From: a virus
Length of the DNA: 23,230 bases
IMG/VR virus record: IMGVR_UViG_3300047284_000200
Span: 1-23,230 of that record
Reading direction: 5' to 3' (one strand)
Shown here: positions 4,726 to 15,677 of the stretch, piece by piece
How positions within the stretch are numbered: position 1 is the first letter of the stretch
Layout: each line of letters opens with the position of its first letter
Translations under genes and position numbers: made by a program
The notes under the pieces: model-generated
Told to the model about the DNA's origin: nothing
What the model saw: only the letters and a program-made list of their open reading frames with translations
Database searches by the model: none

Positions 4726-4967
4726 TGAGACTAAAATCTCACGAATCACCAAGAAAAAGAGGTCGTAACGATAAGTCACCGAAACGATCTGCACGAACTC
4801 GGCAACTTAAAAAAGCCAGGAATATGTTTCTGCAGACTTTAGATAAGAAAAACAAATCAGAAGGGGGGTTGACAAACTCCCCTTTTTCTTTTATATTGCA
4901 TAGGTACTCAACGGAGACAAATGACGAACAAAAGAACTTTGAAACGGTGGTTTCAAGATCCTGTTAA
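4725..4967 (+). CDS. Small, highly basic protein reading through a terminator/promoter
   Basis: 80 aa from ATG 4725. The first 45 residues are very rich in Lys and Arg (KSHESPRKRGRNDKSPKRSA, then RQLKKARN), which suggests nucleic-acid binding. The frame does not stop before the hairpin and promoter at 4863-4897; it continues through them and 47 bases into the next gene. Either the C-terminus is an accident of a lost stop codon or the message ends without a stop. The N-terminal part is well supported, the C-terminal part is doubtful. Confidence 0.55.
   Translation: MRLKSHESPRKRGRNDKSPKRSARTRQLKKARNMFLQTLDKKNKSEGGLTNSPFSFILHRYSTETNDEQKNFETVVSRSC
4843..4897 (+). promoter_or_regulatory. Promoter with a degenerate upstream box
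   Basis: TTGACA at 4869-4874, 17 bp, TATATT at 4892-4897. At 4843-4858 the sequence ATAAGAAAAACAAATC matches 12 of 16 bases of the box ATAAGCAACACTGATC and ends 10 bp before the -35, the same gap as at 10591. It drives the gene at 4921. Confidence 0.8.
4863..4892 (+). terminator. Intrinsic terminator overlapping the next promoter
   Basis: GGGGGGTT (4863-4870), loop GACA, AACTCCCC (4875-4882), with one G-T pair, then TTTTTCTTTT. This is an 8-bp stem with a T tract. The -35 TTGACA straddles stem and loop, and the -10 overlaps the end of the T tract. Confidence 0.8.
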
Positions 4968-6091: not shown

Positions 6092-6099
6092 TCACACTC

Positions 6100-6153
6100 A
6101 TAAGCAACCCTGATCGTTGAGGGGTTGACTTTCCCCCAATCCCATGCAATACT
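6100..6153 (+). promoter_or_regulatory. Box-linked promoter (copy 1)
   Basis: Box ATAAGCAACCCTGATC at 6100-6115 (one change from the common form), 9 bp, TTGACT at 6125-6130, 17 bp, extended -10 TGC-AATACT at 6145-6153. It drives the membrane-protein unit from 6177 to 8570. Confidence 0.85.
6117..6138 (+). other. Hairpin around the -35 box
   Basis: TTG-A-GGGG (6117-6124) can pair with CCCCCAA (from about 6132) with one bulged A, placing TTGACT in the loop. No T tract follows. Confidence 0.5.
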
Positions 6154-6176
6154 ATAAAGGTAATCAAGAGAAGGCA

Positions 6177-6413
6177 ATGCCCGACATCAAATACGAGATG
6201 AATCATTCTGATCCTAAGTATCAGGAATACATCTTCAAAGATGGTCAATATATTGGTGAGATCTACGGTGGTGTTCTTGAAGGATTTGAACTCCGTAAAG
6301 TGAATGGAATTGCCATTGAAGACAGTGGTGTTACTACTGATCTTCAAACCATTGCATACTTCGATACAGTTTGCGATGCTAAATCTTTCGTTAATCAAGC
6401 AGGAGGACTCTAA
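6177..6413 (+). CDS. Small conserved hypothetical protein
   Basis: 78 aa, starting MPDIKYEMNHSDPKYQEYIF. It looks like a small beta-rich domain with several strand pairs (EYIFKDGQYIGEIYGGVLEG, then FELRKVNGIAIED) and a C-terminal helix (CDAKSFVNQAG). I chose ATG 6177 because the earlier in-frame ATG (6144) lies upstream of the transcription start of the promoter at 6125. First gene of its unit. Function unknown. Confidence 0.75.
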   Translation: MPDIKYEMNHSDPKYQEYIFKDGQYIGEIYGGVLEGFELRKVNGIAIEDSGVTTDLQTIAYFDTVCDAKSFVNQAGGL

Positions 6414-6544
6414 TGTTCACGTTTCTTACTATAGGTGCGGCATGGTTCGCATTTGGTTATTGTGTGACTGATATTTTCCAAACATATCAGGCAAACAAAC
6501 GCATTAATGAATTCATCAAAGATTTTGAGGACATCCAAAAATGA
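6413..6544 (+). CDS. Small single-pass membrane protein
   Basis: 43 aa. Residues about 3-21 are hydrophobic (FTLTIGAA-like: FLTIGAAWFAFGYCV), followed by a charged tail (NKRINEFIKDFED). The start overlaps the upstream TAA by one base and the stop overlaps the next start by ATGA. AGGAGG in the leader gives a strong ribosome-binding site. Probably an inner- or thylakoid-membrane protein; no family recognised. Confidence 0.7.
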   Translation: MFTFLTIGAAWFAFGYCVTDIFQTYQANKRINEFIKDFEDIQK

Positions 6545-6669
6545 ACCCTGATACTTACACTTTTGCTGGTGATGCTACCACCTTCCTTGGTCTTGTTGGT
6601 GTGGTTTCGACTGCTATTATTATGGTTGTTGCCTATCGTAGGTACTGGAACTCTCCTTATCGTCGTTAA
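6541..6669 (+). CDS. Small single-pass membrane protein
   Basis: 42 aa. A short polar N-terminus (MNPDTYTFAGDATT) is followed by a transmembrane segment (FLGLVGVVSTAIIMVVAY) and a basic tail (RRYWNSPYRR). Positive charge after the segment suggests the N-terminus faces out. It is coupled by ATGA to the previous membrane gene, so the two may form a pair. In length and layout it resembles small photosystem or transporter subunits, but I see no sequence match to claim. Confidence 0.7.
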   Translation: MNPDTYTFAGDATTFLGLVGVVSTAIIMVVAYRRYWNSPYRR

Positions 6670-6675
6670 TTGACT

Positions 6676-6828
6676 ATGAAACTAGATTATCTCACTGATG
6701 CTGAATATGCTCAGCAAAAGCAACAAGAATACAAACGCAAGAAACTGCGTGAAGTTGTAAAGAACAATGCCAAATCTGCCCGAGGATTTGGTTATGATTA
6801 CAAACCGATTCAATTCCCTGCAAATTAA
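6676..6828 (+). CDS. Small basic hypothetical protein
   Basis: 50 aa, starting MKLDYLTDAEYAQQKQQEYK. A charged helix rich in Gln, Lys and Glu (about residues 8-32) is followed by an extended tail with aromatic residues (GFGYDYKPIQFP). The stop overlaps the next start as TAATG. Function unknown. Confidence 0.65.
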   Translation: MKLDYLTDAEYAQQKQQEYKRKKLREVVKNNAKSARGFGYDYKPIQFPAN

Positions 6829-7040
6829 TGAAATCCAACGGATTCACTCTTGTTGAACTGATGATTGCTCTAACTCTTATTGCTATTGGAGGAATGTTTG
6901 TCGGTCTTCTTATTAACGGAGACCGATCGTTTATTCTCAACAAACAATCCTGCCTTGATGCTGGTGGTCAATGGTCTGAGGGTATTCAATACGGTCGTAT
7001 CACTCAACTCTGTACCATAACTGATTATGAACTTCACTGA
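6828..7040 (+). CDS. Type IV pilin-like (pseudopilin-like) small protein
   Basis: 70 aa. The N-terminus MKSNGFTLVELMIALTLIAI matches the type III (prepilin) signal: a short basic leader, Gly5 as the cleavage point, Phe6 as first mature residue and Glu10 at mature position 5, followed by a hydrophobic helix to about residue 29. Cys42 and Cys61 could form the C-terminal disulfide seen in many pilins. If cut by the host prepilin peptidase (PilD), the product could enter or jam host type IV pili or competence machinery. It is far shorter than a major pilin (usually 130-170 aa), so a minor-pilin mimic or inhibitor is more likely. The role is inference. Confidence 0.75.
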   Translation: MKSNGFTLVELMIALTLIAIGGMFVGLLINGDRSFILNKQSCLDAGGQWSEGIQYGRITQLCTITDYELH

Positions 7041-7296
7041 ACTTAACTTTGACGATCACCCTAGCTGGGATGGTGTTCAAGCAAAACACTTCTTTGACAA
7101 TGGTTATGGTGTGAGTGTGATTAAATCTTCCAACTCCTATGGTGGTGGTCTTGGACTGTATGAACTTGCCGTGCTGAAAGGGGTTGAAGATGAATGGCAA
7201 ATCTGCTATGATACTCCCATCACTGATGATGTTATCGGTCATCTTAGTGAATCTGATGTTGAAAAACTCTTGAATGAGGTTGCTGCTTTGACATGA
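7027..7296 (+). CDS. Conserved hypothetical protein
   Basis: 89 aa, starting MNFTELNFDDHPSWDGVQAK. It shows a small alpha/beta layout with strands around GYGVSVIKSSNSYGGGLGLY and YELAVLKGV, and a C-terminal helix (ESDVEKLLNEVAAL). Similar short proteins occur in cyanophages without a known role. It overlaps the pilin-like gene by 14 bases and the next gene by ATGA. Confidence 0.75.
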   Translation: MNFTELNFDDHPSWDGVQAKHFFDNGYGVSVIKSSNSYGGGLGLYELAVLKGVEDEWQICYDTPITDDVIGHLSESDVEKLLNEVAALT

Positions 7297-7454
7297 TTGC
7301 ACGAATTCTTGGTACTGGAGCAGGTGTACTTTTGATCCTGCTCGTTCTACTTTCGAGAGGTCTTCCTGTCTTGTTCTTTATCAAGATGCTGCCTCTCATT
7401 CTTATTCTAATTGTAGGAGCAGCATTTATCTATGCTGGTCTTACTTCTGACTGA
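7293..7454 (+). CDS. Small two-helix membrane protein
   Basis: 53 aa, almost entirely hydrophobic, with segments at about residues 10-30 (GAGVLLILLVLL and GLPVLFF) and 33-49 (PLILILIVGAAFIYAG). Coupled by ATGA to the previous gene and 28 bases before the SPFH gene. Small membrane partners are common next to SPFH genes, but a link here is only suggested by position. Confidence 0.7.
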   Translation: MIARILGTGAGVLLILLVLLSRGLPVLFFIKMLPLILILIVGAAFIYAGLTSD

Positions 7455-7482
7455 TTCCTGTTCCTTACTCCCTAACTAAACT

Positions 7483-8301
7483 ATGTCTACTGGCAAAATT
7501 GTTCTTGGTGTTGGTGGTGTTCTCGTTGCCCTGATCTTTACTGCAGGACAATTCACCACGATTAACACTGGTGAGAATGGTCTCTATGTGGGATTCGATG
7601 GTAAAGTGAATAATGAAGTGCTGACTCCTGGTATTAAATACGATGGATTTGGCAGCATTAAAGTGTTCAATACTCGTAAGATTACGGTTCAATCTAATGA
7701 TCTGACTCCGAAGACCAAAGACAACACCATCATGAAAGATATGGATGTGGTTGTTACTTACAGTCTCACACCTTCGAGTCTTTATGACTTCTACACTGGG
7801 TACGATATGTCGAACCACGGTGTCAGTGAGAATGGTCAGATTGAACTGATGGCAAGTTTTATCAAACGACTGATTACCTCTGCTGTGAATCAATCGGTTG
7901 ATGAATATCCTGCTCTGGAAGTGAACAGCAGTCTCGATAAGATTCAGGATACTATCAAGAATAACCTGAATCTGTCTCTGGAAAAGAACAACCTCGCAGG
8001 TAAGATTCAGATCGAATCTGTTGTGGTTGTGAAGGCAGATCTCCCTGCTGATCTAGTTGCTGCTGTGAATCGTGTGGTTACTGCACAATCCGCAGAACAG
8101 GAGCAGATTGTTAAGAACCGTACTGCTGAACTGAAAGCAAACGAGAACAAATCTCTTGCTTCGACTATCACTCCGCAGTATCTTGAATATCAACGCAACG
8201 AAATTATGCGTGAGGCATTTAAGAATGGTGGCATCGAAAAGATGATCATTGTTAATGGTTCTTCGATGAACTTCCTGCCTGGTGGTATGACTGGTAAGTG
8301 A
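7483..8301 (+). CDS. SPFH/Band-7 (prohibitin/stomatin-like) membrane protein
   Basis: 272 aa. An N-terminal membrane anchor (about residues 4-24, VLGVGGVLVALIFTAG) is followed by an SPFH domain (about 25-200; TINTGENGLYVGFDGKV, LTPGIKYDGF, VVTYSLTP, VESVVV-type strand IQIESVVVVKADLP) and a charged helical region typical of the family (about 200-235, AEQEQIVKNRTAELKANENK). SPFH proteins form large ring or cage assemblies on membranes and regulate proteases and lipid domains; in cyanophages they recur but the target is unknown. It may act with the neighbouring small membrane proteins. Confidence 0.9.
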   Translation: MSTGKIVLGVGGVLVALIFTAGQFTTINTGENGLYVGFDGKVNNEVLTPGIKYDGFGSIKVFNTRKITVQSNDLTPKTKDNTIMKDMDVVVTYSLTPSSLYDFYTGYDMSNHGVSENGQIELMASFIKRLITSAVNQSVDEYPALEVNSSLDKIQDTIKNNLNLSLEKNNLAGKIQIESVVVVKADLPADLVAAVNRVVTAQSAEQEQIVKNRTAELKANENKSLASTITPQYLEYQRNEIMREAFKNGGIEKMIIVNGSSMNFLPGGMTGK

Positions 8302-8303
8302 TT

Positions 8304-8570
8304 ATGACTGAAACTATTACTCGCAAACAATCTGTAGTTGATGAACTCTGGAAACGAGCAAATGATCTAATCGAAAATTATGATGGTGAATTGTTCGGTT
8401 CAGGTGTCCTTGTCAACATGAATCTGCGTATTCTTGAAGATGAATTGATGACCCCTGATGAGTTTCATAGTTGGGTCTACGATGAAGATCTAGATGCAAT
8501 CCACGATTATATTTGGATTCATACTAAATGCCATCCAAAGTCTCCTTATCGGTATGATGAAGAGCAATAA
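8304..8570 (+). CDS. Small acidic hypothetical protein
   Basis: 88 aa from ATG 8304, starting MTETITRKQSVVDELWKRAN. It is acidic and helical at first, then has aromatic residues (SWVYDEDLDAIHDYIWIHTK). A GTG at 8298 would overlap the SPFH stop as GTGA and is an alternative start. Its TAA stop forms part of the box at 8567, so the gene ends exactly where the next regulatory module begins. Function unknown. Confidence 0.7.
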   Translation: MTETITRKQSVVDELWKRANDLIENYDGELFGSGVLVNMNLRILEDELMTPDEFHSWVYDEDLDAIHDYIWIHTKCHPKSPYRYDEEQ

Positions 8571-8620
8571 GCAACACTGATCAATGGGGGGTTGACTTCC
8601 CCCTTTTTTTGTGCCATACT
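8567..8620 (+). promoter_or_regulatory. Box-linked promoter (copy 2)
   Basis: Box ATAAGCAACACTGATC at 8567-8582, 9 bp, TTGACT at 8592-8597, 17 bp, extended -10 TGC-CATACT at 8612-8620. It drives the ligase-like gene at 8627, whose start is so near that the leader must be very short. Confidence 0.9.
8586..8610 (+). terminator. Intrinsic terminator with the -35 box as its loop
   Basis: GGGGG (8587-8591), loop TTGACTT, CCCCC (8599-8603), then seven T (8604-8610). A short but strong G/C stem with a T tract, ending the 6177-8570 unit. The loop is the -35 hexamer of the next promoter. Confidence 0.85.
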
Positions 8621-8626
8621 AAAGAC

Positions 8627-9532
8627 ATGAAAAACACACACCTCGAACATCCCGAAGATTCTGTGCTGCTGGGCAAGCAATCTGTACAGAATGTTATCAA
8701 GTTTCTCCGTGATCGTAATTCTACTGTCACTGTGAAGTGGGATGGTGCTCCTGCTATTGTATTTGGCACGAATCCTGAGAATGGCAAGTTCTTTGTTGGT
8801 ACTAAAAGTGTATTCAACAAGGTGAAAGTCAAGATCAATTATACTCATGCCGACATCGAGAAGTATCACGGCACGAACCCTAAAGTTGCTGGGATTCTCC
8901 ACACTTGCCTCGAAACTTTCCCGAGGATCGAAGGTGTTTATCAGGGTGATTTTATTGGTTTTGGTGGTACGAATACTTTTACTCCCAATACTATTACTTA
9001 CACTTTCGATTCCATTCCCAATTCTGCTTCTATTGTGTTTGCTTGTCATACTTCTTATGATGGTGACACGATGAAGACTTTGGAAGCAAGTTTCGGAGTT
9101 CCGTTCTATCTCAAACAGAACTTCATGTCCACTTATTTTGTGAATACTGATGCAGTTGTTGCCTCCCGTCGTCGTAGAGTTGATTACATTCTTGGTCTTG
9201 CAAGTGTGGTTAGCAATTTTGTTAAGTACCCTGATGCAAAAGAAGTAGCAAAACTGCAGATTCTGATTAATAAGTGCATCCGTGATAATCGTCCTGTTGA
9301 TTGTATCTCTGGCAACATGTTGCTGCTGTTCAATCTCATCACCAAGGCAAAGGAACTGATCATGGAAGGTATGCAATCTGTTGAGCAGGTTAATGCTGAG
9401 ATCGTCTACACTGGCATCGAAGTTATACCTGGACATGAGGGTTTCGTTATGTCTAACCAGTTCGGTGCTTACAAGTTAGTCAAGAGGCAGAAGTTCTCGT
9501 TCTATAACTTTACTTTGCCTAAGAACTGGTGA
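8627..9532 (+). CDS. Divergent ATP-dependent ligase-like nucleotidyltransferase
   Basis: 301 aa from ATG 8627. VKWDGAPAIVFG (residues 36-47) carries the KxDG motif I with Lys37 as the candidate nucleotide-accepting residue. EGVYQGDFIG (102-111) could be motif III. Near the C-terminus EGFVMSNQFGAYKLVKR (271-287) fits motifs IV (EGxV) and V (Lys283, Lys286), about as far apart as in T4 RNA ligase 1. Such enzymes join or cap nucleic-acid ends through a covalent Lys-AMP. The overall sequence is otherwise unlike T4 ligases, and I recall cyanophage relatives listed only as conserved proteins of unknown function. I am fairly sure of the fold, unsure of the substrate (RNA or DNA). Alone in its unit, just upstream of small genes and a helicase. 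Confidence 0.7.
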   Translation: MKNTHLEHPEDSVLLGKQSVQNVIKFLRDRNSTVTVKWDGAPAIVFGTNPENGKFFVGTKSVFNKVKVKINYTHADIEKYHGTNPKVAGILHTCLETFPRIEGVYQGDFIGFGGTNTFTPNTITYTFDSIPNSASIVFACHTSYDGDTMKTLEASFGVPFYLKQNFMSTYFVNTDAVVASRRRRVDYILGLASVVSNFVKYPDAKEVAKLQILINKCIRDNRPVDCISGNMLLLFNLITKAKELIMEGMQSVEQVNAEIVYTGIEVIPGHEGFVMSNQFGAYKLVKRQKFSFYNFTLPKNW

Positions 9533-9535
9533 ACC

Positions 9536-9589
9536 ATAAGCAACACTGATCGTTCAGGGGTTGACTTTGGCACCGATCCACCCTATCAT
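9536..9589 (+). promoter_or_regulatory. Box-linked promoter (copy 3)
   Basis: Box ATAAGCAACACTGATC at 9536-9551, 9 bp, TTGACT at 9561-9566, 17 bp, TATCAT at 9584-9589. GATCG (9548-9552) and CGATC (9574-9578) could form a 5-bp stem around the -35, a weak version of the hairpins at other copies. It drives 9614-10565. Confidence 0.85.
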
Positions 9590-9613
9590 TACAAAGTAAT
9601 CGAAATCAAACAC

Positions 9614-9733
9614 ATGTGGGACGAAATCATGGACATGCCTGGTGAGATCTTTGATCTCGACATTGATGATCGTGATATGATGCCTCTTGACATGCAAGAT
9701 GACATCGAAAATGAAGATCCTCTGCTGGACTGA
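9614..9733 (+). CDS. Tiny acidic Asp/Met-rich protein
   Basis: 39 aa, starting MWDEIMDMPGEIFDLDIDDR. About a third of the residues are Asp or Glu, with six Met. It is the first gene after the promoter at 9561 and has no basic segment. It might mimic DNA or act as a small inhibitor, but composition is the only hint. Short length lowers confidence. Confidence 0.6.
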   Translation: MWDEIMDMPGEIFDLDIDDRDMMPLDMQDDIENEDPLLD

Positions 9734-9752
9734 TCAATCTAACTGAGAACAA

Positions 9753-9911
9753 ATGACTGTTATTAATCAGCAACACTGGGACACTCTTTATACCAAACTC
9801 TACGATGCGTATGAACAGTGTTCCAAGAATTATGACGAGACTTACCGACAATTTATTGGTGAGATTCTCGATCACATGATTAACAACAAACCCTATCTCA
9901 ACATCAAATGA
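9753..9911 (+). CDS. Small helical hypothetical protein
   Basis: 52 aa, starting MTVINQQHWDTLYTKLYDAY. It is one long amphipathic helix region with many Tyr, then FIGEILDHMINNKPYLNIK. Overlaps the next gene by ATGA. Function unknown. Confidence 0.65.
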   Translation: MTVINQQHWDTLYTKLYDAYEQCSKNYDETYRQFIGEILDHMINNKPYLNIK

Positions 9912-10090
9912 CTGAAACGAGTATCATCAATTACCTCAATCTCACTCAAGAAGAAGAGAATTGTATCATGCTGCTGCTCACTGAAGCACGGCAACTTGGA
10001 TACCCTAGTAATAAAGAACCATGGTATCCTGTGATTGATAGTATTGTCAGCAAATATACCAAACGAAAGTATCGCAATCAAACTCGATGA
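9908..10090 (+). CDS. Small hypothetical protein
   Basis: 60 aa, starting MTETSIINYLNLTQEEENCI. An acidic helical first half (TQEEENCIMLLLTEARQLG) is followed by a Trp/Pro turn and a basic C-terminus (VSKYTKRKYRNQTR). ATGA overlaps on both sides place it in the 9614-10565 unit. Function unknown. Confidence 0.7.
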   Translation: MTETSIINYLNLTQEEENCIMLLLTEARQLGYPSNKEPWYPVIDSIVSKYTKRKYRNQTR

Positions 10091-10293
10091 CAAACAACGC
10101 ACGAATCATCTCCAGTCTTGTACTCTGTGTGGCATATGTAATCACCTTGTATGTTGATGAGGTGATTGGTGCTCGTTTATACCTTGCAGGCAACATCCTG
10201 GCAATGCCCTACATGATCCAGAATAAGTGTTGGGACATTGTTGCACTTCTAGCATTCTTCATTGTTGTAGGTCTTCCTAAGGCAATCTCATGA
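10087..10293 (+). CDS. Small membrane protein (two or three segments)
   Basis: 68 aa. Hydrophobic segments lie at about residues 7-23 (IISSLVLCVAYVITLYV), 28-42 (GARLYLAGNILAMPY) and 49-65 (WDIVALLAFFIVVGLP). It lies in the middle of a coupled run (ATGA on both sides). Family not recognised. Confidence 0.7.
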   Translation: MTNNARIISSLVLCVAYVITLYVDEVIGARLYLAGNILAMPYMIQNKCWDIVALLAFFIVVGLPKAIS

Positions 10294-10565
10294 AGTTGTT
10301 ATTTCACAAGGCACCCGAAGGTTATCACTATGAACGCACCGATTTTAAGACTAATATTAGTGCAATTTGGATTGTTAATGACAATCACTTTGACTATTGT
10401 GGGTGCTCTGGTGTTAGGTCGATCTGGGGATTCATCAACACCAAGACCAAACAATTCCACGCACCAGTTAATAGTAAGACAGTGGGTAGTGTAGTCAAAC
10501 TGGAGCAGACTACATGTTACTCTGCGATGCAAAAGTTAAAAGATAAGTTGACTGAATCAGTCTGA
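10290..10565 (+). CDS. Small hypothetical protein
   Basis: 91 aa, starting MKLLFHKAPEGYHYERTDFK. It looks beta-rich, with strands around ISAIWIVNDNHFDYCGCSG and SIWGFINTKTKQFHAPVNSK, then a C-terminal helix with TTCYSAMQKLKDKLTE. The CGC motif and one further Cys could bind metal, but this is weak. The final codons overlap the box at 10565. Function unknown. Confidence 0.7.
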   Translation: MKLLFHKAPEGYHYERTDFKTNISAIWIVNDNHFDYCGCSGVRSIWGFINTKTKQFHAPVNSKTVGSVVKLEQTTCYSAMQKLKDKLTESV

Positions 10566-10619
10566 TAAGCAACACTGATGGATCAGGGGGTTGACTTCTG
10601 CCCCTTGATCCTTTATTGT
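10565..10619 (+). promoter_or_regulatory. Box-linked promoter (copy 4)
   Basis: Box ATAAGCAACACTGATG at 10565-10580 (last base changed), 10 bp, TTGACT at 10591-10596, 17 bp, TATTGT at 10614-10619. It drives the helicase. This is the only full copy with a 10-bp gap. Confidence 0.85.
10580..10611 (+). terminator. Terminator-like hairpin with the -35 box in its loop
   Basis: GGATCAGGGGG (10580-10590) pairs with CCCCTTGATCC (10601-10611), 11 pairs with one G-T, around the loop TTGACTTCTG. TTTATT follows, a poor T tract. The loop begins exactly at the -35 hexamer. Confidence 0.75.
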
Positions 10620-10642
10620 ATTCACATACCAATCAATTCGTT

Positions 10643-11875
10643 ATGCAACTCCGTCCTCACCAATCCCGTGCTCTCGATGCAATGAATCAGCACAAGATCG
10701 GTCAGATCATTGTGCCTACTGGTGGTGGTAAAACTCTCATCATGATCATGAATCTGCTGCAACGTTTTGTGCAGAATCCTGGTCAGGTTGCTGTTGTTGT
10801 TGCACCCCGAATCCTGCTTGCTGAGCAACTCTCCGCAGAGTTTCTGGAGTTTATCACCAGTGCCAATGTGTTGCACGTTCATAGTGGTGAAACTCATCAC
10901 ACTAAGACTACCAAATCCGAGAAGATTGCGGATTGGGTTACTCAATATGCGGACACCAATCGTATCATCTTCACGACCTACAATTCTCTGGGTCGTGTTG
11001 TTGATGCTGGTGTGAATGTCGATGTGGCATACTTCGATGAAGCACACAATTCTACTCAAAAGAATCACTTCATTGCGGTTGCTGCTACTTCGATGTCCGC
11101 AGATAGCAAGTATTTCTTTACTGCTACTCCCAAACATCACAGCAATCCTAATGCTAACGGCATGAACAATGTTGGTATCTACGGCAAGATCATTGAGTCC
11201 GTTCGTGCTAAGGAACTGATCGACGGTGGTTGCATCATTCCTCCGCAAGTTTCGACCTACAAAGTAGACATCACCCGTGACAAACGCACTGCTGCAGAGG
11301 CAGACCGCAACATGATTGTGGACATTCTCGATAGTCTGGAGCAGGACAATCCTAAGGTGTTGGTAGCTGCTCCCAGCACCAAAGTGATGTGGAATATGCT
11401 CACTAACTCTGACATCCTTAAGGAACTCGAAGATCGTGGATTTAACATCCTTCACATTACATCTAAGCATGGTGCCTATGTTAATCGTACAAAGGTCAAT
11501 CGTGAGAAGTTCTTTGACACTCTGACCGAGTGGGGCAAAGATCCTAGCAAGAAATTTGTGCTCCTTCACTATAGCATCCTGTCCGAAGGTATCAACGTTC
11601 CTGGTCTGACTACCTGCATCATGTTGCGTCAGATGCCTATCATCGAGATGGCACAAACAGTCGGTCGTGTTATCCGTATGGACAAAGATGATGCCAAGGA
11701 TATTGCATCGGGTCGCATTCCTGCTGGTGCTTGTCATCTGTATCGCAAGCAGTTTGGTAGTGTGATCGTGCCTGTGTTCACCAACTACGGTAGTGCTATT
11801 GCCAAACGATTGCAGGGTGTTGTTGACACTATCTTTGTGCAAGGTCTCCCTGCTATCTCTACCATGACTCGTTGA
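10643..11875 (+). CDS. Superfamily 2 DEAH-type helicase
   Basis: 410 aa from ATG 10643; an earlier TTG reading would start inside the -10. Motifs appear in SF2 order: Q-like LRPHQSRAL (3-11), Walker A PTGGGKT (25-31), DEAH at 132-135, TATP near 160, and motif VI QTVGRVIRM (338-346). Known relatives (T4 UvsW, type III restriction-like helicases) unwind or remodel branched DNA or RNA. It is shorter than UvsW (about 500 aa) and has no obvious extra N-terminal domain, so it may be a second, minimal helicase. It is the only gene of its unit, followed by a large hairpin. Confidence 0.9.
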   Translation: MQLRPHQSRALDAMNQHKIGQIIVPTGGGKTLIMIMNLLQRFVQNPGQVAVVVAPRILLAEQLSAEFLEFITSANVLHVHSGETHHTKTTKSEKIADWVTQYADTNRIIFTTYNSLGRVVDAGVNVDVAYFDEAHNSTQKNHFIAVAATSMSADSKYFFTATPKHHSNPNANGMNNVGIYGKIIESVRAKELIDGGCIIPPQVSTYKVDITRDKRTAAEADRNMIVDILDSLEQDNPKVLVAAPSTKVMWNMLTNSDILKELEDRGFNILHITSKHGAYVNRTKVNREKFFDTLTEWGKDPSKKFVLLHYSILSEGINVPGLTTCIMLRQMPIIEMAQTVGRVIRMDKDDAKDIASGRIPAGACHLYRKQFGSVIVPVFTNYGSAIAKRLQGVVDTIFVQGLPAISTMTR

Positions 11876-11903
11876 GATTCGTTTATACTTTCTGATTTTT
11901 CGG

Positions 11904-11957
11904 TTCTGGGATTGTGGGGGACGCACACTAGCACCCTCACCCCAGAATCGCAGATTT
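11904..11957 (+). terminator. Large hairpin, probable terminator of the helicase unit
   Basis: TTCTGGG (11904-11910) and GTGGGGG (11914-11920) pair with CCCTCAC (11934-11940) and CCCAGAA (11941-11947). This gives 14 pairs with one G-T and a 3-base bulge (ATT) on one side, with a 13-base loop. TTTTT follows at 11953-11957. It is longer and more elaborate than the other terminators here. Confidence 0.65.
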
Positions 11958-12098
11958 TTCGGGTTTTGACCCCAGTGGTGGCAAGGGTTCTCAGGCAAGA
12001 CACAGCCGAGACTGACAGCAGCAGCAGACCCTAGCATCATTCCCCACTGTGCCAGTTGCTCAAAGTGTCCACCATTCTCCCCATTGCCCCCCATTTGC

Positions 12099-12107
12099 TG
12101 CCATACT
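12099..12107 (+). promoter_or_regulatory. Possible extended -10 promoter
   Basis: TGC-CATACT matches the extended -10 of copies 2, 5 and 6, but there is no TTGAC 17 bp upstream and no box. It lies 25 bases before ATG 12133, so it may need an activator or be weak. Confidence 0.45.
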
Positions 12108-12132
12108 AATCACATCAAACGAAATCAAGCAA

Positions 12133-12297
12133 ATGCGAATCGACGTTAAGTGCAGTGCTGCTCCCTGGGAGAACACTACCACTGATCTGGATAAAGCATA
12201 CGATCTGGCATATAATTTGAGTGAAGAGTATCAGTGTGATGTAGACCTTCGTTATAACGAGACTGGCATCATCTTCACCACTGTTTCTGCATACTGA
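12133..12297 (+). CDS. Small hypothetical protein
   Basis: 54 aa, starting MRIDVKCSAAPWENTTTDLD. The layout strand, helix (KAYDLAYNLSEEYQ), strand pair (CDVDLRYNETGIIFTTV) fits a tiny alpha/beta domain. ATG 12133 is chosen because earlier in-frame codons lie upstream of the possible -10 at 12102. Function unknown. Confidence 0.7.
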   Translation: MRIDVKCSAAPWENTTTDLDKAYDLAYNLSEEYQCDVDLRYNETGIIFTTVSAY

Positions 12298-12306
12298 GTC
12301 GCAATC

Positions 12307-12519
12307 ATGAATCTGTATATCATCAACGAAGTTCTGTCTGATTATACCTCTGGCATGGTAGTTATTGCTGCTGAGTCTAAAGAATTGGCACGAGAGTTCT
12401 TTATTGCTGAGTTCAGTGAGTATCATGCTGAAGAGTTCGATAAGTATGCAAAGTTCACTGTTATCGAAGGTGTGAATCATCCTGCTGGTATTGTAGACTA
12501 TGTGTACGGTGGTGGTTGA
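12307..12519 (+). CDS. Small acidic conserved hypothetical protein
   Basis: 70 aa, starting MNLYIINEVLSDYTSGMVVI. Strand, helix (ESKELAREFFIAEFSEY), then a strand (AKFTVIEGV) and a Gly-rich tail: a common layout for small phage alpha/beta proteins that start 'MxLYIIxEVLxDYTxGxxVVxA'. The stop overlaps the next start as TGATG. Function unknown. Confidence 0.75.
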   Translation: MNLYIINEVLSDYTSGMVVIAAESKELAREFFIAEFSEYHAEEFDKYAKFTVIEGVNHPAGIVDYVYGGG

Positions 12520-12701
12520 TGACTTTTGAATTTTTACTTGCTGCCATCCTATCAGCAAAGCAAGCAAATTCGATCCCAAATCCTGAATATGTGGATCGTT
12601 ATTGTTCTGAGTTAGTTGGTATCCCATACGCATCTGACAACTTTAGTGATAGTGAATGGGTGCAATTTAAGACATGCAGAGAAGTTATGGGTAGCAGGTA
12701 G
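12519..12701 (+). CDS. Small hypothetical protein
   Basis: 60 aa, starting MTFEFLLAAILSAKQANSIP. The first 14 residues are hydrophobic but are followed by only weakly polar residues; a membrane anchor is possible but not clear. C-terminal part is acidic with two Cys. It ends 4 bases before the box at 12706. Function unknown. Confidence 0.65.
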   Translation: MTFEFLLAAILSAKQANSIPNPEYVDRYCSELVGIPYASDNFSDSEWVQFKTCREVMGSR

Positions 12702-12705
12702 ACCC

Positions 12706-12759
12706 ATAAGCAACACTGATCAGAAAATGCTTGACTCTGCCCCTGATCCGTGCCATACT
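12706..12759 (+). promoter_or_regulatory. Box-linked promoter (copy 5)
   Basis: Box ATAAGCAACACTGATC at 12706-12721, 9 bp, TTGACT at 12731-12736, 17 bp, extended -10 TGC-CATACT at 12751-12759. GATCAG (12718-12723) can pair with CTGATC (12743-12748) around the -35. It drives 12785-13875. Confidence 0.9.
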
Positions 12760-12784
12760 ATGTTCATCAACCAAAGGGAACGCA

Positions 12785-13012
12785 ATGCACCCCTATTTCA
12801 CAACCAACTTCGCAGATCGTGAGATGTTTGCTTATAATTCCTACCGTGAAAAGCAACGTGCTGAGATTGATCGAATCAACGCACATCCTGAGCAACGCAT
12901 GAAGTATTGCTTCTCATTCATGCAAGGTGCTGACACTGAAACCCGTAAAAAGTGTTTCGATAAAATTGCAGAATACTCTGCACAACTTGACTACTCCGAA
13001 GCACACTACTGA
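12785..13012 (+). CDS. Small hypothetical protein
   Basis: 75 aa, starting MHPYFTTNFADREMFAYNSY. Mostly helical and charged (REKQRAEIDRINAHPEQRM, then TETRKKCFDKIAEYSAQL). AAAGGGAACGCA gives a modest ribosome-binding site. First gene after the promoter at 12731; the in-frame ATG in the -35 region is excluded. Function unknown. Confidence 0.75.
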   Translation: MHPYFTTNFADREMFAYNSYREKQRAEIDRINAHPEQRMKYCFSFMQGADTETRKKCFDKIAEYSAQLDYSEAHY

Positions 13013-13041
13013 TTCATTCTTTACACTCAACACACAAACAA

Positions 13042-13320
13042 ATGACTGAGTTTATCTGCATCACTTTCGGTCCTTCTGATGATGTTGCTCGCAACGGTTG
13101 GTGGAATCGTAAAGAACGATTCAGCACACAACGACGTGCCGAACGTTGTGGTCTTGAGCAACTTTCTAATGCTGGAACTTTCGGTTATGTTGTCATCGAA
13201 GAGACCGAAGATTCTTGGGAAGTTGTAGACGAACTGGGTGCACCTGCTCACGCAGTTTCTATCACTGCCAAAGGTTTCACCTATCAGGTACAACCTGCTC
13301 CTGCACTTGTCCTCGTCTGA
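13042..13320 (+). CDS. Small hypothetical protein
   Basis: 92 aa, starting MTEFICITFGPSDDVARNGW. A strand with a Gly turn leads to a basic helix (RFSTQRRAERCGLEQLSNAG), then strands TFGYVVIEETEDSWEVV and a Pro/Val-rich end. This looks like a compact alpha/beta fold. No family recognised. Confidence 0.7.
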   Translation: MTEFICITFGPSDDVARNGWWNRKERFSTQRRAERCGLEQLSNAGTFGYVVIEETEDSWEVVDELGAPAHAVSITAKGFTYQVQPAPALVLV

Positions 13321-13331
13321 TCTAAACTAAC

Positions 13332-13589
13332 ATGGCACGAACTCTTCAACAACTCCAACAATCTGTTGCTCGTCTGATAGATCAACAGGGACCAGATGCA
13401 CCTGTTGCTGCATTTATCTTCACAATGGAAGATGTATTCCTGATTGATGAAGATACACTAGAAGAAACACCTCTGCCTGTAGATGTGTGTGCTGATGTTC
13501 TCAATGAAGTCGAAGATTCCGACTATATTTGTGAACAAGTGTTCGAGATGATTGATGATGAACTGACCCGTAAAGGAGTGAAGAAGTGA
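13332..13589 (+). CDS. Small acidic hypothetical protein
   Basis: 85 aa, starting MARTLQQLQQSVARLIDQQG. An N-terminal helix is followed by a strand (APVAAFIFTMEDVFLID) and a very acidic C-terminal part (LNEVEDSDYICEQVFEMIDD). The stop overlaps the GTG start of the next gene as GTGA. The pattern of a helix and a central strand with 'xxDVFxID' recurs in small cyanophage proteins. Function unknown. Confidence 0.75.
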   Translation: MARTLQQLQQSVARLIDQQGPDAPVAAFIFTMEDVFLIDEDTLEETPLPVDVCADVLNEVEDSDYICEQVFEMIDDELTRKGVKK

Positions 13590-13744
13590 ACAAACAAATG
13601 CAAATGATTGACATTCTGAAACAAGAATGTCGCAACGATTACGACTTGCTCAATCAAATCATTGAGGAATATGTGTTAGGACTCAGTGAGAGTGAGTCTG
13701 ACGTTTTAGAGGATTTCATTGTCAACAATTTCGGAGAACTTTGA
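13586..13744 (+). CDS. Small acidic helical protein (GTG start)
   Basis: 52 aa. GTG 13586 is preferred over ATG 13598 because AGGAG lies 8 bases before it (13573-13577) and it overlaps the upstream stop. The protein (NKQMQMIDILKQECRNDYDL, then an acidic helix ending VNNFGEL) is fully helical. The stop overlaps the next start as TGATG. Function unknown. Confidence 0.7.
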   Translation: MNKQMQMIDILKQECRNDYDLLNQIIEEYVLGLSESESDVLEDFIVNNFGEL

Positions 13745-13875
13745 TGAAACCCAAGTATTTTGGTGCTGGCATCTTTGCACTGGTTGTGATGATCGGTTGG
13801 AACGTGTTTCTGATTCAACGTGATGCGGAACTGTTCCGTGCTATTGAACAACCAAATGCGGAAGTTCGCAAGTAA
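13744..13875 (+). CDS. Small single-pass membrane protein
   Basis: 43 aa. After MKPKYF comes one hydrophobic segment (GAGIFALVVMIGWNVFLI, about residues 7-24), then a charged tail (QRDAELFRAIEQPNAEVRK). Basic N-terminus suggests N-in topology. Last gene of the 12785-13875 unit. Similar tiny phage membrane proteins are of unknown role. Confidence 0.7.
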   Translation: MKPKYFGAGIFALVVMIGWNVFLIQRDAELFRAIEQPNAEVRK

Positions 13876-13891
13876 AAACTCATAAATGCTG

Positions 13892-13957
13892 CTTATCAGA
13901 CCCATAAGCAACACTTATCCAAAACCCCTTGACTTTCCCCCTGATCCCTGCCATACT
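13892..13957 (+). promoter_or_regulatory. Box-linked promoter (copy 6), with an extra half-site
   Basis: CTTATC at 13892-13897, 6 bp, then box ATAAGCAACACTTATC at 13904-13919 (a dyad, ATAAG N5 CTTAT), 9 bp, TTGACT at 13929-13934, 17 bp, extended -10 TGC-CATACT at 13949-13957. No -35 hairpin. It drives 14004-15070. Confidence 0.9.
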
Positions 13958-13966
13958 ATGTTCATC

Positions 13967-13986
13967 GGGGGTTGAGAGAGATCCCC
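13967..13986 (+). other. Hairpin at the 5' end of the leader
   Basis: GGGGGT (13967-13972) pairs with ATCCCC (13981-13986), with one G-T pair, around TGAGAGAG. The expected transcript start is near 13964, so the hairpin would cap the very 5' end of the message. Confidence 0.5.
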
Positions 13987-14003
13987 ACCACTAACATCCT
14001 CAA

Positions 14004-14255
14004 ATGACTAACACTTTCCAAACCAACATTGCTGACAAAGGTTACAACGGTTGGACTAACTACGAAACCTGGAATGTTGCTCTCTGGATTCAAAATGATG
14101 AGAGTCTGTATGATTTTGCAAAGGATTGCACCTCTTATGATGATCTGATTGCTGGTCTGTATGATTGTGGTTCGAAGGAAACTCCTGACGGTGTGAAGTG
14201 GAACGATTCGAAAGTTAATCACATTGAGATCAACGAAATGCTCGAAGATCTCTGA
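14004..14255 (+). CDS. Conserved phage protein with the NYETWNVALWIxNDE motif
   Basis: 83 aa. The segment GYNGWTNYETWNVALWIQND (about residues 13-32) is a strong signature of a small family found in many phages and some bacteria, with no known function. After it come a helix (DFAKDCTSYDDLIAGLYDCG) and VKWNDSKVNHIEINEMLEDL. First gene behind the promoter at 13929; the leader begins with a hairpin. Family recognition is good, biological role unknown. Confidence 0.85.
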   Translation: MTNTFQTNIADKGYNGWTNYETWNVALWIQNDESLYDFAKDCTSYDDLIAGLYDCGSKETPDGVKWNDSKVNHIEINEMLEDL

Positions 14256-14259
14256 TTAA

Positions 14260-14412
14260 ATGTCTCGCAAATTAACCTGCAAATCTCCCAACATGCTGAA
14301 CCTCGCAACTCTATTAATCGTCCTGCTGTGTATTCTCTCACCACAGTTCAGGTATAACGTAGGAAGCACATTCATTTGGATTGGTAACACTCTGCAAGGT
14401 GAAATCAAATGA
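14260..14412 (+). CDS. Small membrane protein
   Basis: 50 aa. A basic N-terminus (MSRKLTCKSPNM) precedes a hydrophobic segment (LATLLIVLLCILSP, about residues 15-28). A second weakly hydrophobic part (NVGSTFIWIGNTLQGEIK) follows. It overlaps the next gene by ATGA. Family not recognised. Confidence 0.65.
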   Translation: MSRKLTCKSPNMLNLATLLIVLLCILSPQFRYNVGSTFIWIGNTLQGEIK

Positions 14413-14510
14413 GTCGGGAGCAACGTCAAACGAACCAAGTTCGGACACAAACACAACAAATCCGATCTATACTATTCAACAAGAAACCAACATTTAAGAC
14501 TCACAAATGA
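14409..14510 (+). CDS. Tiny basic Gln-rich protein
   Basis: 33 aa, starting MSREQRQTNQVRTQTQQIRS. Only 33 residues, but it is joined by ATGA overlaps to both neighbours, which supports real translation. Rich in Gln, Arg and Lys and probably disordered. It might only serve to couple translation of the genes on each side. Confidence 0.5.
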   Translation: MSREQRQTNQVRTQTQQIRSILFNKKPTFKTHK

Positions 14511-14761
14511 GCAAAGATCTGTACACTGAAATCATCAACAACGAACAAATGACTAACACCTTCGATCGTGATTCTCTCATCTCCGATTATGCTGAACTGG
14601 TCGTAGATGACATGGATTTGAAAACACTTGTTCAACTTGCTTATGATATGATCTGTGAGAATATGGAACGAATGACTGATAATGAGATTGTAGAAGATGT
14701 GAATAATTGCTATCCTGAATTGCTCGAACAGTATAGCATTGATCCTGATATGTACCTCTGA
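14507..14761 (+). CDS. Small acidic conserved hypothetical protein
   Basis: 84 aa. From about residue 20 the pattern RDSLISDYAELVVDDMDLKT followed by LVQLAYDMICENMERMTDNE is fully helical and acidic, and it recurs in cyanophages as a protein of unknown role. ATG 14507 overlaps the upstream stop. ATG 14549, in MTNTFDRDSL, is a plausible second start. Confidence 0.75.
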   Translation: MSKDLYTEIINNEQMTNTFDRDSLISDYAELVVDDMDLKTLVQLAYDMICENMERMTDNEIVEDVNNCYPELLEQYSIDPDMYL

Positions 14762-14775
14762 TCATTAACACTATC

Positions 14776-14931
14776 ATGAACACCAATACTAACAAGATGA
14801 ATCACGATTACTATAACACTGATTACATTGAGAGGGAAGATCTAGATTGGGATGATATGCTAACACCTGATCAATACCTCGATCATTTGGATAGACGACT
14901 CTTTGAAAAGTCCAACCGATTCTATGATTGA
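14776..14931 (+). CDS. Small acidic Asp/Tyr-rich protein
   Basis: 51 aa, starting MNTNTNKMNHDYYNTDYIER. A low-complexity Asn/Tyr N-terminus is followed by an acidic helix (REDLDWDDMLTPDQYLDHLD). Overlaps the next gene by 8 bases. Function unknown. Confidence 0.6.
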   Translation: MNTNTNKMNHDYYNTDYIEREDLDWDDMLTPDQYLDHLDRRLFEKSNRFYD

Positions 14932-15070
14932 AATGAACCGCATCTTAACTAACATCAACGAAGACAATCTAGAGGAAATCATCCTAGAAGAGATTCTCCC
15001 TTTAGATGATACACAACTCGAAAAGTATGTGAATGAGTTAGTTGCGGAAATGTTTTCCACAAAAGTATGA
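14924..15070 (+). CDS. Small acidic helical protein
   Basis: 48 aa, starting MIEMNRILTNINEDNLEEII. Two acidic helices with Leu/Ile ridges (NLEEIILEEILPLDDTQLEK, then YVNELVAEMF). ATG 14933 is an alternative start. Its last codons contain the first of three TTTTCCACA motifs. Function unknown. Confidence 0.65.
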   Translation: MIEMNRILTNINEDNLEEIILEEILPLDDTQLEKYVNELVAEMFSTKV

Positions 15071-15095
15071 AAATTGTGGAAAAACCTGTGGAAAA
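15053..15095. promoter_or_regulatory. Cluster of three DnaA-box-like motifs
   Basis: TTTTCCACA at 15053-15061 on the + strand, and TGTGGAAAA (the same motif on the minus strand) at 15075-15083 and 15087-15095. All three are identical to TTTTCCACA, the form usually given for cyanobacterial DnaA boxes. The two minus-strand copies are 12 bp apart, about one helix turn. AT-rich sequence and an inverted repeat follow. Confidence 0.6.
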
Positions 15096-15100
15096 TTAAA

Positions 15101-15120
15101 TACCTAAAAAAATATAGGTA
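15101..15120. repeat. AT-rich inverted repeat
   Basis: TACCTA (15101-15106) and TAGGTA (15115-15120) are exact complements around the 8-base AAAAAATA. It follows the DnaA-box cluster and might be an unwinding or cruciform element. No T tract on the + strand. Confidence 0.6.
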
Positions 15121-15219
15121 GTGTGTTCAATAGAGAGAGAAATAGGTCTGGTTGATGTAAGTTAAGCCGACAATACCACGAAACTCCGAGATTGTCAAGA
15201 TGCCACCCCATCAGGATCA

Positions 15220-15285
15220 CTTATCACCCACATAAGCAACACTTATCCCAAACTGCTTGACAGACCCCTCTAAATGCCCTATATT
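15220..15285 (+). promoter_or_regulatory. Box-linked promoter (copy 7), with an extra half-site
   Basis: CTTATC at 15220-15225, 6 bp, box ATAAGCAACACTTATC at 15232-15247, 9 bp, TTGACA at 15257-15262, 17 bp, TATATT at 15280-15285. The arrangement CTTATC N6 ATAAG N5 CTTATC is the same as at copy 6. It drives the gene at 15354. No -35 hairpin. Confidence 0.9.
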
Positions 15286-15291
15286 AAGTGC

Positions 15292-15325
15292 ATCGGAGGG
15301 AAGGGAAACAACCCACCACCCCGAT
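15292..15325 (+). other. Leader hairpin
   Basis: ATCGG (15292-15296) pairs with CCGAT (15321-15325), with a smaller GGG/CCC pair inside (15303-15305 and 15312-15314). It starts at the expected transcript start, as at 13967. Confidence 0.4.
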
Positions 15326-15353
15326 AACTCCAAACCCCCTTCAATCGTCTCCC

Positions 15354-15677
15354 ATGCGTAAGATCGAACGTCTGATGAATGCTGCTATCACTGCTGGCAA
15401 AGATTGGAAACTCGATAACACCGAGGTTCTGTACTTCTCTGGTCATGATAAGTCTCAGGTTTATCTGCATGGCAATCTGATTGCTGAGATCGGTCCTACC
15501 TATATCGAACTGTTCGATGGTGGTTGGCAAACTCCTACCACAAAGTCCCGTCTGAATGCTATTCTCTCCGAGCATGGTATTCCTGGTGAAGGTGTATTCC
15601 AGAAGAAAGGAGAATGGTTCTTCAAGTCTAACGACTATGGCACGATTCCCTTCTTCTCGGGTATGCGTATTGCCTAA
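15354..15677 (+). CDS. Conserved hypothetical protein
   Basis: 107 aa from ATG 15354, starting MRKIERLMNAAITAGKDWKL. Helix first, then a beta-rich part (EVLYFSGHDKSQVYLHGNLI, then GPTYIELFDGGWQTPTT), a helix (KSRLNAILSEHG) and a final strand region (GEWFFKSNDYGTIPFFSG). This resembles a conserved cyanophage protein of unknown role. An upstream in-frame ATG at 15288 lies at or before the transcript start and is excluded. Confidence 0.8.
   Translation: MRKIERLMNAAITAGKDWKLDNTEVLYFSGHDKSQVYLHGNLIAEIGPTYIELFDGGWQTPTTKSRLNAILSEHGIPGEGVFQKKGEWFFKSNDYGTIPFFSGMRIA

Follow-up and report, generated by a model that had tools for sequence, protein, structure and literature searches.

The closest described counterparts of the element analyzed here, a dyad repeated upstream of bacterial-type promoters in the virus record IMGVR_UViG_3300047284_000200 (the window, 23,230 bases in all), are the sites of bacterial and phage regulators. 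LysR-type sites contain T-N11-A in an imperfect dyad and are paired two to three helical turns apart, with recognition near -65 and an activation site next to the -35 (PMC8407307). In cyanobacteria, the RbcR regulon consensus is ATTA(G/A)-N5-(C/T)TAAT and RbcR activates from about -90 (PMC13249358, citing Bolay et al. 2022), and the NdhR/CmpR consensus is ATAG-N8-CTAT or TTA-N7/8-TAA (PMC13249358). The Pho box (CTTA-N7-CTTA) and the NtcA site (GTA-N8-TAC) occur in cyanophages (PMC3037559). In the cyanophage early-promoter literature, no motif matching the dyad of the window was found. Among phages, T-even genomes carry PeSL cassettes, in which an early sigma-70 promoter and a terminator stem-loop lie together between small genes.

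The box in the window and its spacing

A sequence-only reading of the window had described a 16-bp box, ATAAGCAACACTKATC, in seven copies upstream of promoters, with a gap of 9 bp (once 10 bp) to the -35 and 17 bp from the -35 to the -10. This description was borne out. ATAAGCAACACTKATC is present on the + strand at all seven positions, mismatched in one base at most; 9 bp separate it from TTGAC at 6100, 8567, 9536, 12706, 13904 and 15232 and 10 bp at 10565, the -35 is TTGAC(T/A), and the 17-bp spacer is kept in all seven copies. At three or fewer mismatches the window holds nine matches, compared with a mean of 0.51 in 100 dinucleotide shuffles, none of which reaches nine. A divergent copy on the minus strand and a degenerate copy are present in the window as well. 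The box is not as frequent away from promoters: the window has eight dyads of the form NATAAG-N5-CTNAT-S, each followed by a -35 at 9-10 bp, and no such dyad occurs in any other setting. When preceded by G, the T variant of the box is a perfect palindrome, GATAAG-CAACA-CTTATC. The putative operators and their promoters are as follows.

4842..4858, + strand: degenerate operator GATAAGAAAAACAAATC; gap 10; -35 TTGACA at 4869, -10 TATATT
6099..6115, + strand: operator dyad CATAAGCAACCCTGATC; -35 TTGACT 6125-6130, -10 AATACT 6148-6153 with extended -10 TGC; heads small genes from 6177
8566..8582, + strand: operator dyad AATAAGCAACACTGATC, which overlaps the stop codon of the gene upstream; -35 8592-8597, -10 CATACT 8615-8620; heads 8627-9532 (DUF6267)
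9535..9551, + strand: operator dyad CATAAGCAACACTGATC; -35 9561-9566, -10 TATCAT 9584-9589; heads small genes
10564..10580, + strand: operator dyad GATAAGCAACACTGATG; gap 10; -35 10591-10596, -10 TATTGT 10614-10619; heads the helicase gene 10643-11875
12705..12721, + strand: operator dyad CATAAGCAACACTGATC; -35 12731-12736, -10 CATACT 12754-12759; heads small genes
13881..13897, + strand: upstream second dyad CATAAATGCTGCTTATC; 5 bp separate it from the 13903 operator, with 22 bp from centre to centre
13903..13919, + strand: operator dyad CATAAGCAACACTTATC; -35 13929-13934, -10 CATACT 13952-13957; heads the DUF7249 gene 14004-14255
15209..15225, - strand: divergent operator dyad GATAAGTGATCCTGATG; gap 10; -35 TTGACA 15198-15193, spacer 17, -10 TATTGT 15175-15170; also pairs with the 15231 operator as its upstream partner at 5 bp
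15231..15247, + strand: operator dyad CATAAGCAACACTTATC; -35 TTGACA 15257-15262, -10 TATATT 15280-15285; heads the Kyano_Gp96 gene (15288-15677 frame)

The 17-bp dyad as the recognition unit

Behind the 16-bp string stands a wider 17-bp dyad, S-ATAAG-N5-CT(T/G/A)AT-S, of which the string is a lineage-specific version. When the bare 16-mer was scanned across the viral collection, 91 stretches were fetched, and TTGAC lies close downstream in 54 of them. The wider pattern (ATAAG-N5-CTNAT, 9-10 bp, TTGAC, 17 bp, NANNNT), applied to the viral collection, retrieved at least 120 stretches, in which a single contig can have as many as seven copies, whereas a control pattern with the gap lengthened by 5 bp retrieved 100 stretches with one copy each, which were incoherent. 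The two sets also differ in sequence: C follows the dyad in 49% of matches at the normal gap versus 11% in the control, and C occupies the third base of the right arm in 6% versus 31%.

Expectation maximisation on 661 non-redundant promoters (redundancy cut at 80% identity over 90 bases, which leaves some weight to related phages) placed 209 in one motif, with a gap of 9 in 109, a gap of 10 in 100, and none or one at five other gap pairs, a count that is biased if taken alone because the promoter set was partly fetched by pattern. In a promoter-blind count across seven box-bearing records, a -35 stands at 9-10 bp for 70 of 86 dyads; seven box-less genomes hold four chance dyads, none with a -35 at that distance. 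The ten arm positions of the motif carry 1.3-1.9 bits, except for the third base of the right arm (0.33), and the spacer positions carry 0.1-0.95 bits; conserved arms around a variable centre were also seen in 63 promoters of seven genome records or contigs. The inner five bases vary between phages and even inside the single genome G001 (AACTC, AGATG, CAACA, GTATT, ATCTT), while the arms are constant. As the inner bases drift and the arms stay, the recognition unit is the 17-bp dyad rather than the 16-bp string; the single point to correct in the box first described is that its arms, and not the inner CAACA, are conserved, and CAACA was dropped as part of the recognition sequence, since the wider scan shows the centre varying and the arms not. 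A small class of sites was also noted in which the -35 lies about one helical turn further off, at 19-21 bp (L025, S-CREM1 158029, S-H38 150344); for the two box-like dyads of S-CREM1 and S-H38 this distance is about 21 bp.

Tandem and bidirectional arrangement

A second dyad lies upstream at 5 bp in 40 of the 209 promoters and at 14-15 bp in 16, and almost nowhere else. The centres of such pairs are 22 or 31-32 bp apart, two distances that differ by one helical turn; in the window, the boxes at 13904 and 15232 each have a partner 5 bp upstream. In addition, TTGAC is found on the opposite strand 9-10 bp from the box in 21 of the 209, so that in about 10% of cases the box has a further promoter, pointing the other way, at an equal distance, and at 31-32 bp, past the second dyad, in 10 of the 209; no other distance accounts for more than three. 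The occurrence of opposite-strand TTGAC at matching distances indicates that the site is arranged symmetrically, and it probably works symmetrically too, to judge from this arrangement. Taken together, the symmetry of the dyad, its fixed distance to the -35, the helical register of the tandem copies and their use in two directions strongly support a protein-bound site that would group many phage promoters.

The divergent boxed promoter of the window (15170-15225, minus strand) points away from the promoter at 15257 and has no convincing minus-strand gene downstream; a non-coding or antisense transcript from it is possible. Within the 17-bp spacers, GATCC(C/G)TGC is often found directly before the -10 (12754, 13952, 8615 and relatives), and the extended -10 (TGC) is present in four of the seven copies.

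Phages that carry the dyad

The window comes from a T4-like cyanophage. Its nearest isolate is Synechococcus phage S-CREM1, with approximately 84% identity across 24% of the window; the window also contains members of the gp25-type baseplate wedge and Kyanoviridae Gp96 families. The T4-like carriers have 4 (S-CREM1), 6 (S-H38), 8 (G003) and 21 (G001) copies, and the contigs G018 and G019 have 12 and 13; all 21 copies of G001 are on one strand, between 99 and 122 kb. The reversed pattern gave no match in 24 records, and a pattern scan of the records found the box absent from Syn9, S-PM2, P-SSM2, P-SSM4, P-HM2, S-SZBM1, S-CAM22, DSL-LC02 and P-SSP7.

The other carriers are T7-like contigs, freshwater (for example L062 and L044) and marine (for example L156) as judged by relatives and base composition, which encode a phage RNA polymerase, a gp2.5-type single-stranded DNA-binding protein, terminase or thymidylate synthase. 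These contigs have a single promoter-linked box each, with a tandem partner (14 loci examined), and in L062 and L156, the contigs having both, the box precedes the polymerase gene. In the Mediterranean T7-like record GU943054, GATAAGCAGTACTAATC is followed by 9 bp and then TTGACA. The dyad is therefore common to T4-like and T7-like cyanophages of fresh and sea water.

Three further observations belong here. The leftmost non-coding region of S-CBP4 (KC310804) holds a one-mismatch box, ATAAGCAACACTGATA, at 172-187, with no TTGAC at the distance seen elsewhere; this phage and S-CREM1 share an isolation host. In S-CREM1 (OP535465), orthologues of boxed promoters of the window (78957-79007 and 81676-81726) carry GTGACARTCYWRGAACTGGTC in the same place instead, which is possibly the site of a second regulator. 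A winged-helix protein of 90 amino acids, weakly similar to MarR, is the product of the first gene behind the boxed promoter in 15 freshwater T7-like contigs.

L062 6244-6513: winged-helix gene; orthologues in L013, L023, L028, L031, L033, L043, L044, L052, L064, L066, L067, L076, L080 and L095

Comparison with known regulator sites

The phage dyad shares with LysR-type sites the T-N11-A signature (T3 and A15 of the motif, each about 99% conserved) and an odd centre, as well as a location upstream of the -35 and pairing of sites two or three turns apart. In contrast, the invariant phage dyad lies near -53/-54 rather than -65, with its optional partner near -75 or -85, and no regulator gene stands beside the sites in T4-like phages. 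Judged by geometry, a LysR-type regulator fits the site best, an assignment that is nevertheless rather less likely than not.

Compared with the RbcR consensus, the dyad has the same 5-5-5 geometry, and its right arm reads CTAAT in about a quarter of phage sites; the left arm, however, is ATAAG, and of 63 sites 57 have A and 2 have T as its third base; the RbcR site was rejected on this difference. Compared by eye with the phage motif, the NdhR/CmpR consensus, the Pho box and the NtcA site also fail to match. Pho boxes and NtcA sites are nevertheless a precedent for phage promoters exploiting host regulators, although they differ in sequence and symmetry, the Pho box being made of direct repeats and the NtcA site having another core. 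T4 middle promoters (MotA box, AsiA) are similar in that one activator site is repeated before many phage promoters, but there the MotA box replaces the -35 and MotA is phage-encoded, whereas the boxes of the window precede an intact TTGAC; this -35, together with the 17-bp spacer in seven of seven copies, rules out a T4-type middle promoter.

Hairpins around the -35

Three boxed promoters of the window have terminator-like hairpins around the -35.

4859..4886, + strand: terminator-like hairpin, the -35 hexamer spanning the loop
8586..8603, + strand: intrinsic-terminator-like hairpin GGGGGG-TTGACT-TCCCCC followed by seven T, the -35 hexamer in the loop
10580..10611, + strand: terminator-like hairpin of 12 pairs, the -35 hexamer in the loop and the U-tract overlapping the -10

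Folding around the -35 is stronger in boxed promoters than in shuffles (mean -7.3 versus -4.4 kcal/mol). It falls below -6 kcal/mol in 46% of boxed promoters, while the mean of their own shuffles does so for 24%, and stems of at least 7 pairs occur in 35% of boxed versus 16% of box-less promoters. With the -35 in the loop of a hairpin, the upstream unit would end exactly where the next begins. Somewhat like PeSL cassettes, these elements appear to join an early-type promoter to a terminator-like hairpin and are repeated between small accessory genes; they differ in that the -35 lies inside the hairpin, that an operator dyad stands ahead of it, and that only some of the copies have a hairpin. 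A possible PeSL-like nature would explain the copying of whole promoters within a genome.

Origin and action of the factor

T7-like phages must use the host polymerase and host factors at their first promoters. The same operator is found in two unrelated lineages, in the T7-like phages before the RNA polymerase gene, and a search for a family of open reading frames that S-CREM1, S-H38, G003 and G001 all have and the box-less genomes lack found none; these observations point to a host protein. The sequence-only reading had proposed a phage regulon; the site does appear to group many promoters, but it is special neither to the phage of the window nor to one 16-mer, and a host-encoded factor is more likely. 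The same reading had placed the site where an activator or an alpha-subunit contact is usual, and the location fits an activator: taking the transcription start from the -10, as is assumed here, the centre of the dyad falls near -53, clear of the core promoter. This position, together with the multiplication of copies in lytic phages, argues for activation.

The best explanation, which we hold to be somewhat probable, is thus that a dimeric protein of the host binds the box and activates phage early promoters. The box would be a dyad-symmetric, 17-bp operator for a DNA-binding protein of the picocyanobacterial host that is present before infection. The dimer would have its centre at about -53/-54, often with a second dimer 22 or 32 bp from it on one face of the helix, and would recruit or stabilize the host sigma-70-type RNA polymerase at the presumed early promoters; one dimer on a symmetric site could serve two divergent promoters. 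T4-like phages would have spread the promoter cassette (operator, -35, -10 and often a terminator hairpin enclosing the -35) across the early region with their accessory genes, and T7-like phages would have kept one tandem copy before the early operon leading to their own polymerase.

Several points weigh against this explanation. The exact 16-mer with TTGA 7-13 bp downstream was found in no cyanobacterial genome of the species collection, the only matches being two Bacteroidetes contigs, as expected by chance, so that the host would need variants of the site. Several marine Synechococcus and Prochlorococcus T4-like phages are without the box, and the factor is thus not universally needed. The comparison of open reading frames used tblastn, which can miss very small or diverged regulators, and the case for activation is one of position.

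It is unlikely that the factor is instead an early or virion-borne regulator of the phages themselves that turns on the promoters of the accessory region. The all-or-none occurrence of the box among related T4-like phages looks as if regulator and sites travel together, and the winged-helix gene that comes first after the box in the 15 freshwater contigs also speaks for it. However, that gene is missing from T4-like and the remaining box-bearing phages, for which reason its product was rejected as the factor; no family of open reading frames was found that all four box-bearing T4-like genomes share and the box-less ones lack; and the T7-like box precedes the genes from which any phage factor would come. 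The adjacent winged-helix gene and the palindromic tandem operators of the T7-like phages would also suit autorepression, and a repressor of host or phage origin that closes the early promoters, by autoregulation or temporal shut-off, has to be weighed. We consider it improbable, as the sites span -45 to -61, outside the core promoter and with equal clearance on either side of the dyad, whereas repressor sites usually overlap the -35 or -10, and lytic phages would be expected to lose the sites of a host repressor, yet they have up to 21 copies per genome.

Copying of a mobile promoter cassette comparable to the T-even PeSL elements, with the box itself functionless, would account for the flanks that copies within one phage share past the box (G018/G019) and for the over-representation of terminator-like hairpins around the -35. 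Across lineages, however, the flanks and the inner 5 bp drift while the arms, phasing, tandem spacing and bidirectionality persist, and the box is also present in the unrelated T7-like phages, all of which makes a functionless box very unlikely. Direct contact of the box by RNA polymerase as an upstream promoter (UP) element, through the alpha C-terminal domain or a sigma region, is extremely improbable: the constant distance to the -35 and the host-type core promoter would agree with it, but UP elements are A/T tracts without dyad symmetry, whereas the box is a bidirectional 17-bp dyad with conserved inner-edge G and C and tandem pairs, and many sigma-70-like promoters of the same phages have no box.

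Implications for cyanophage infection

The element is a widespread cyanophage operator whose partner protein is probably borne by the host. Two unrelated kinds of virus place the same mirror-image site at a fixed distance before bacterial-type promoters, which suggests that both borrow one bacterial regulatory protein for their first genes. It is quite possible, if a little short of probable, that both lineages rely on one host activator for their first wave of transcription and sense the state of the host via a single unnamed regulon, with a symmetric site firing early promoters both ways. How cyanophage transcription begins in picocyanobacteria is still little understood. The common operator offers a bait for the host factor, and the box may help to link metagenomic phage contigs to the hosts that have this factor. 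The site may also be a point at which the metabolic state of the host decides how infection starts.

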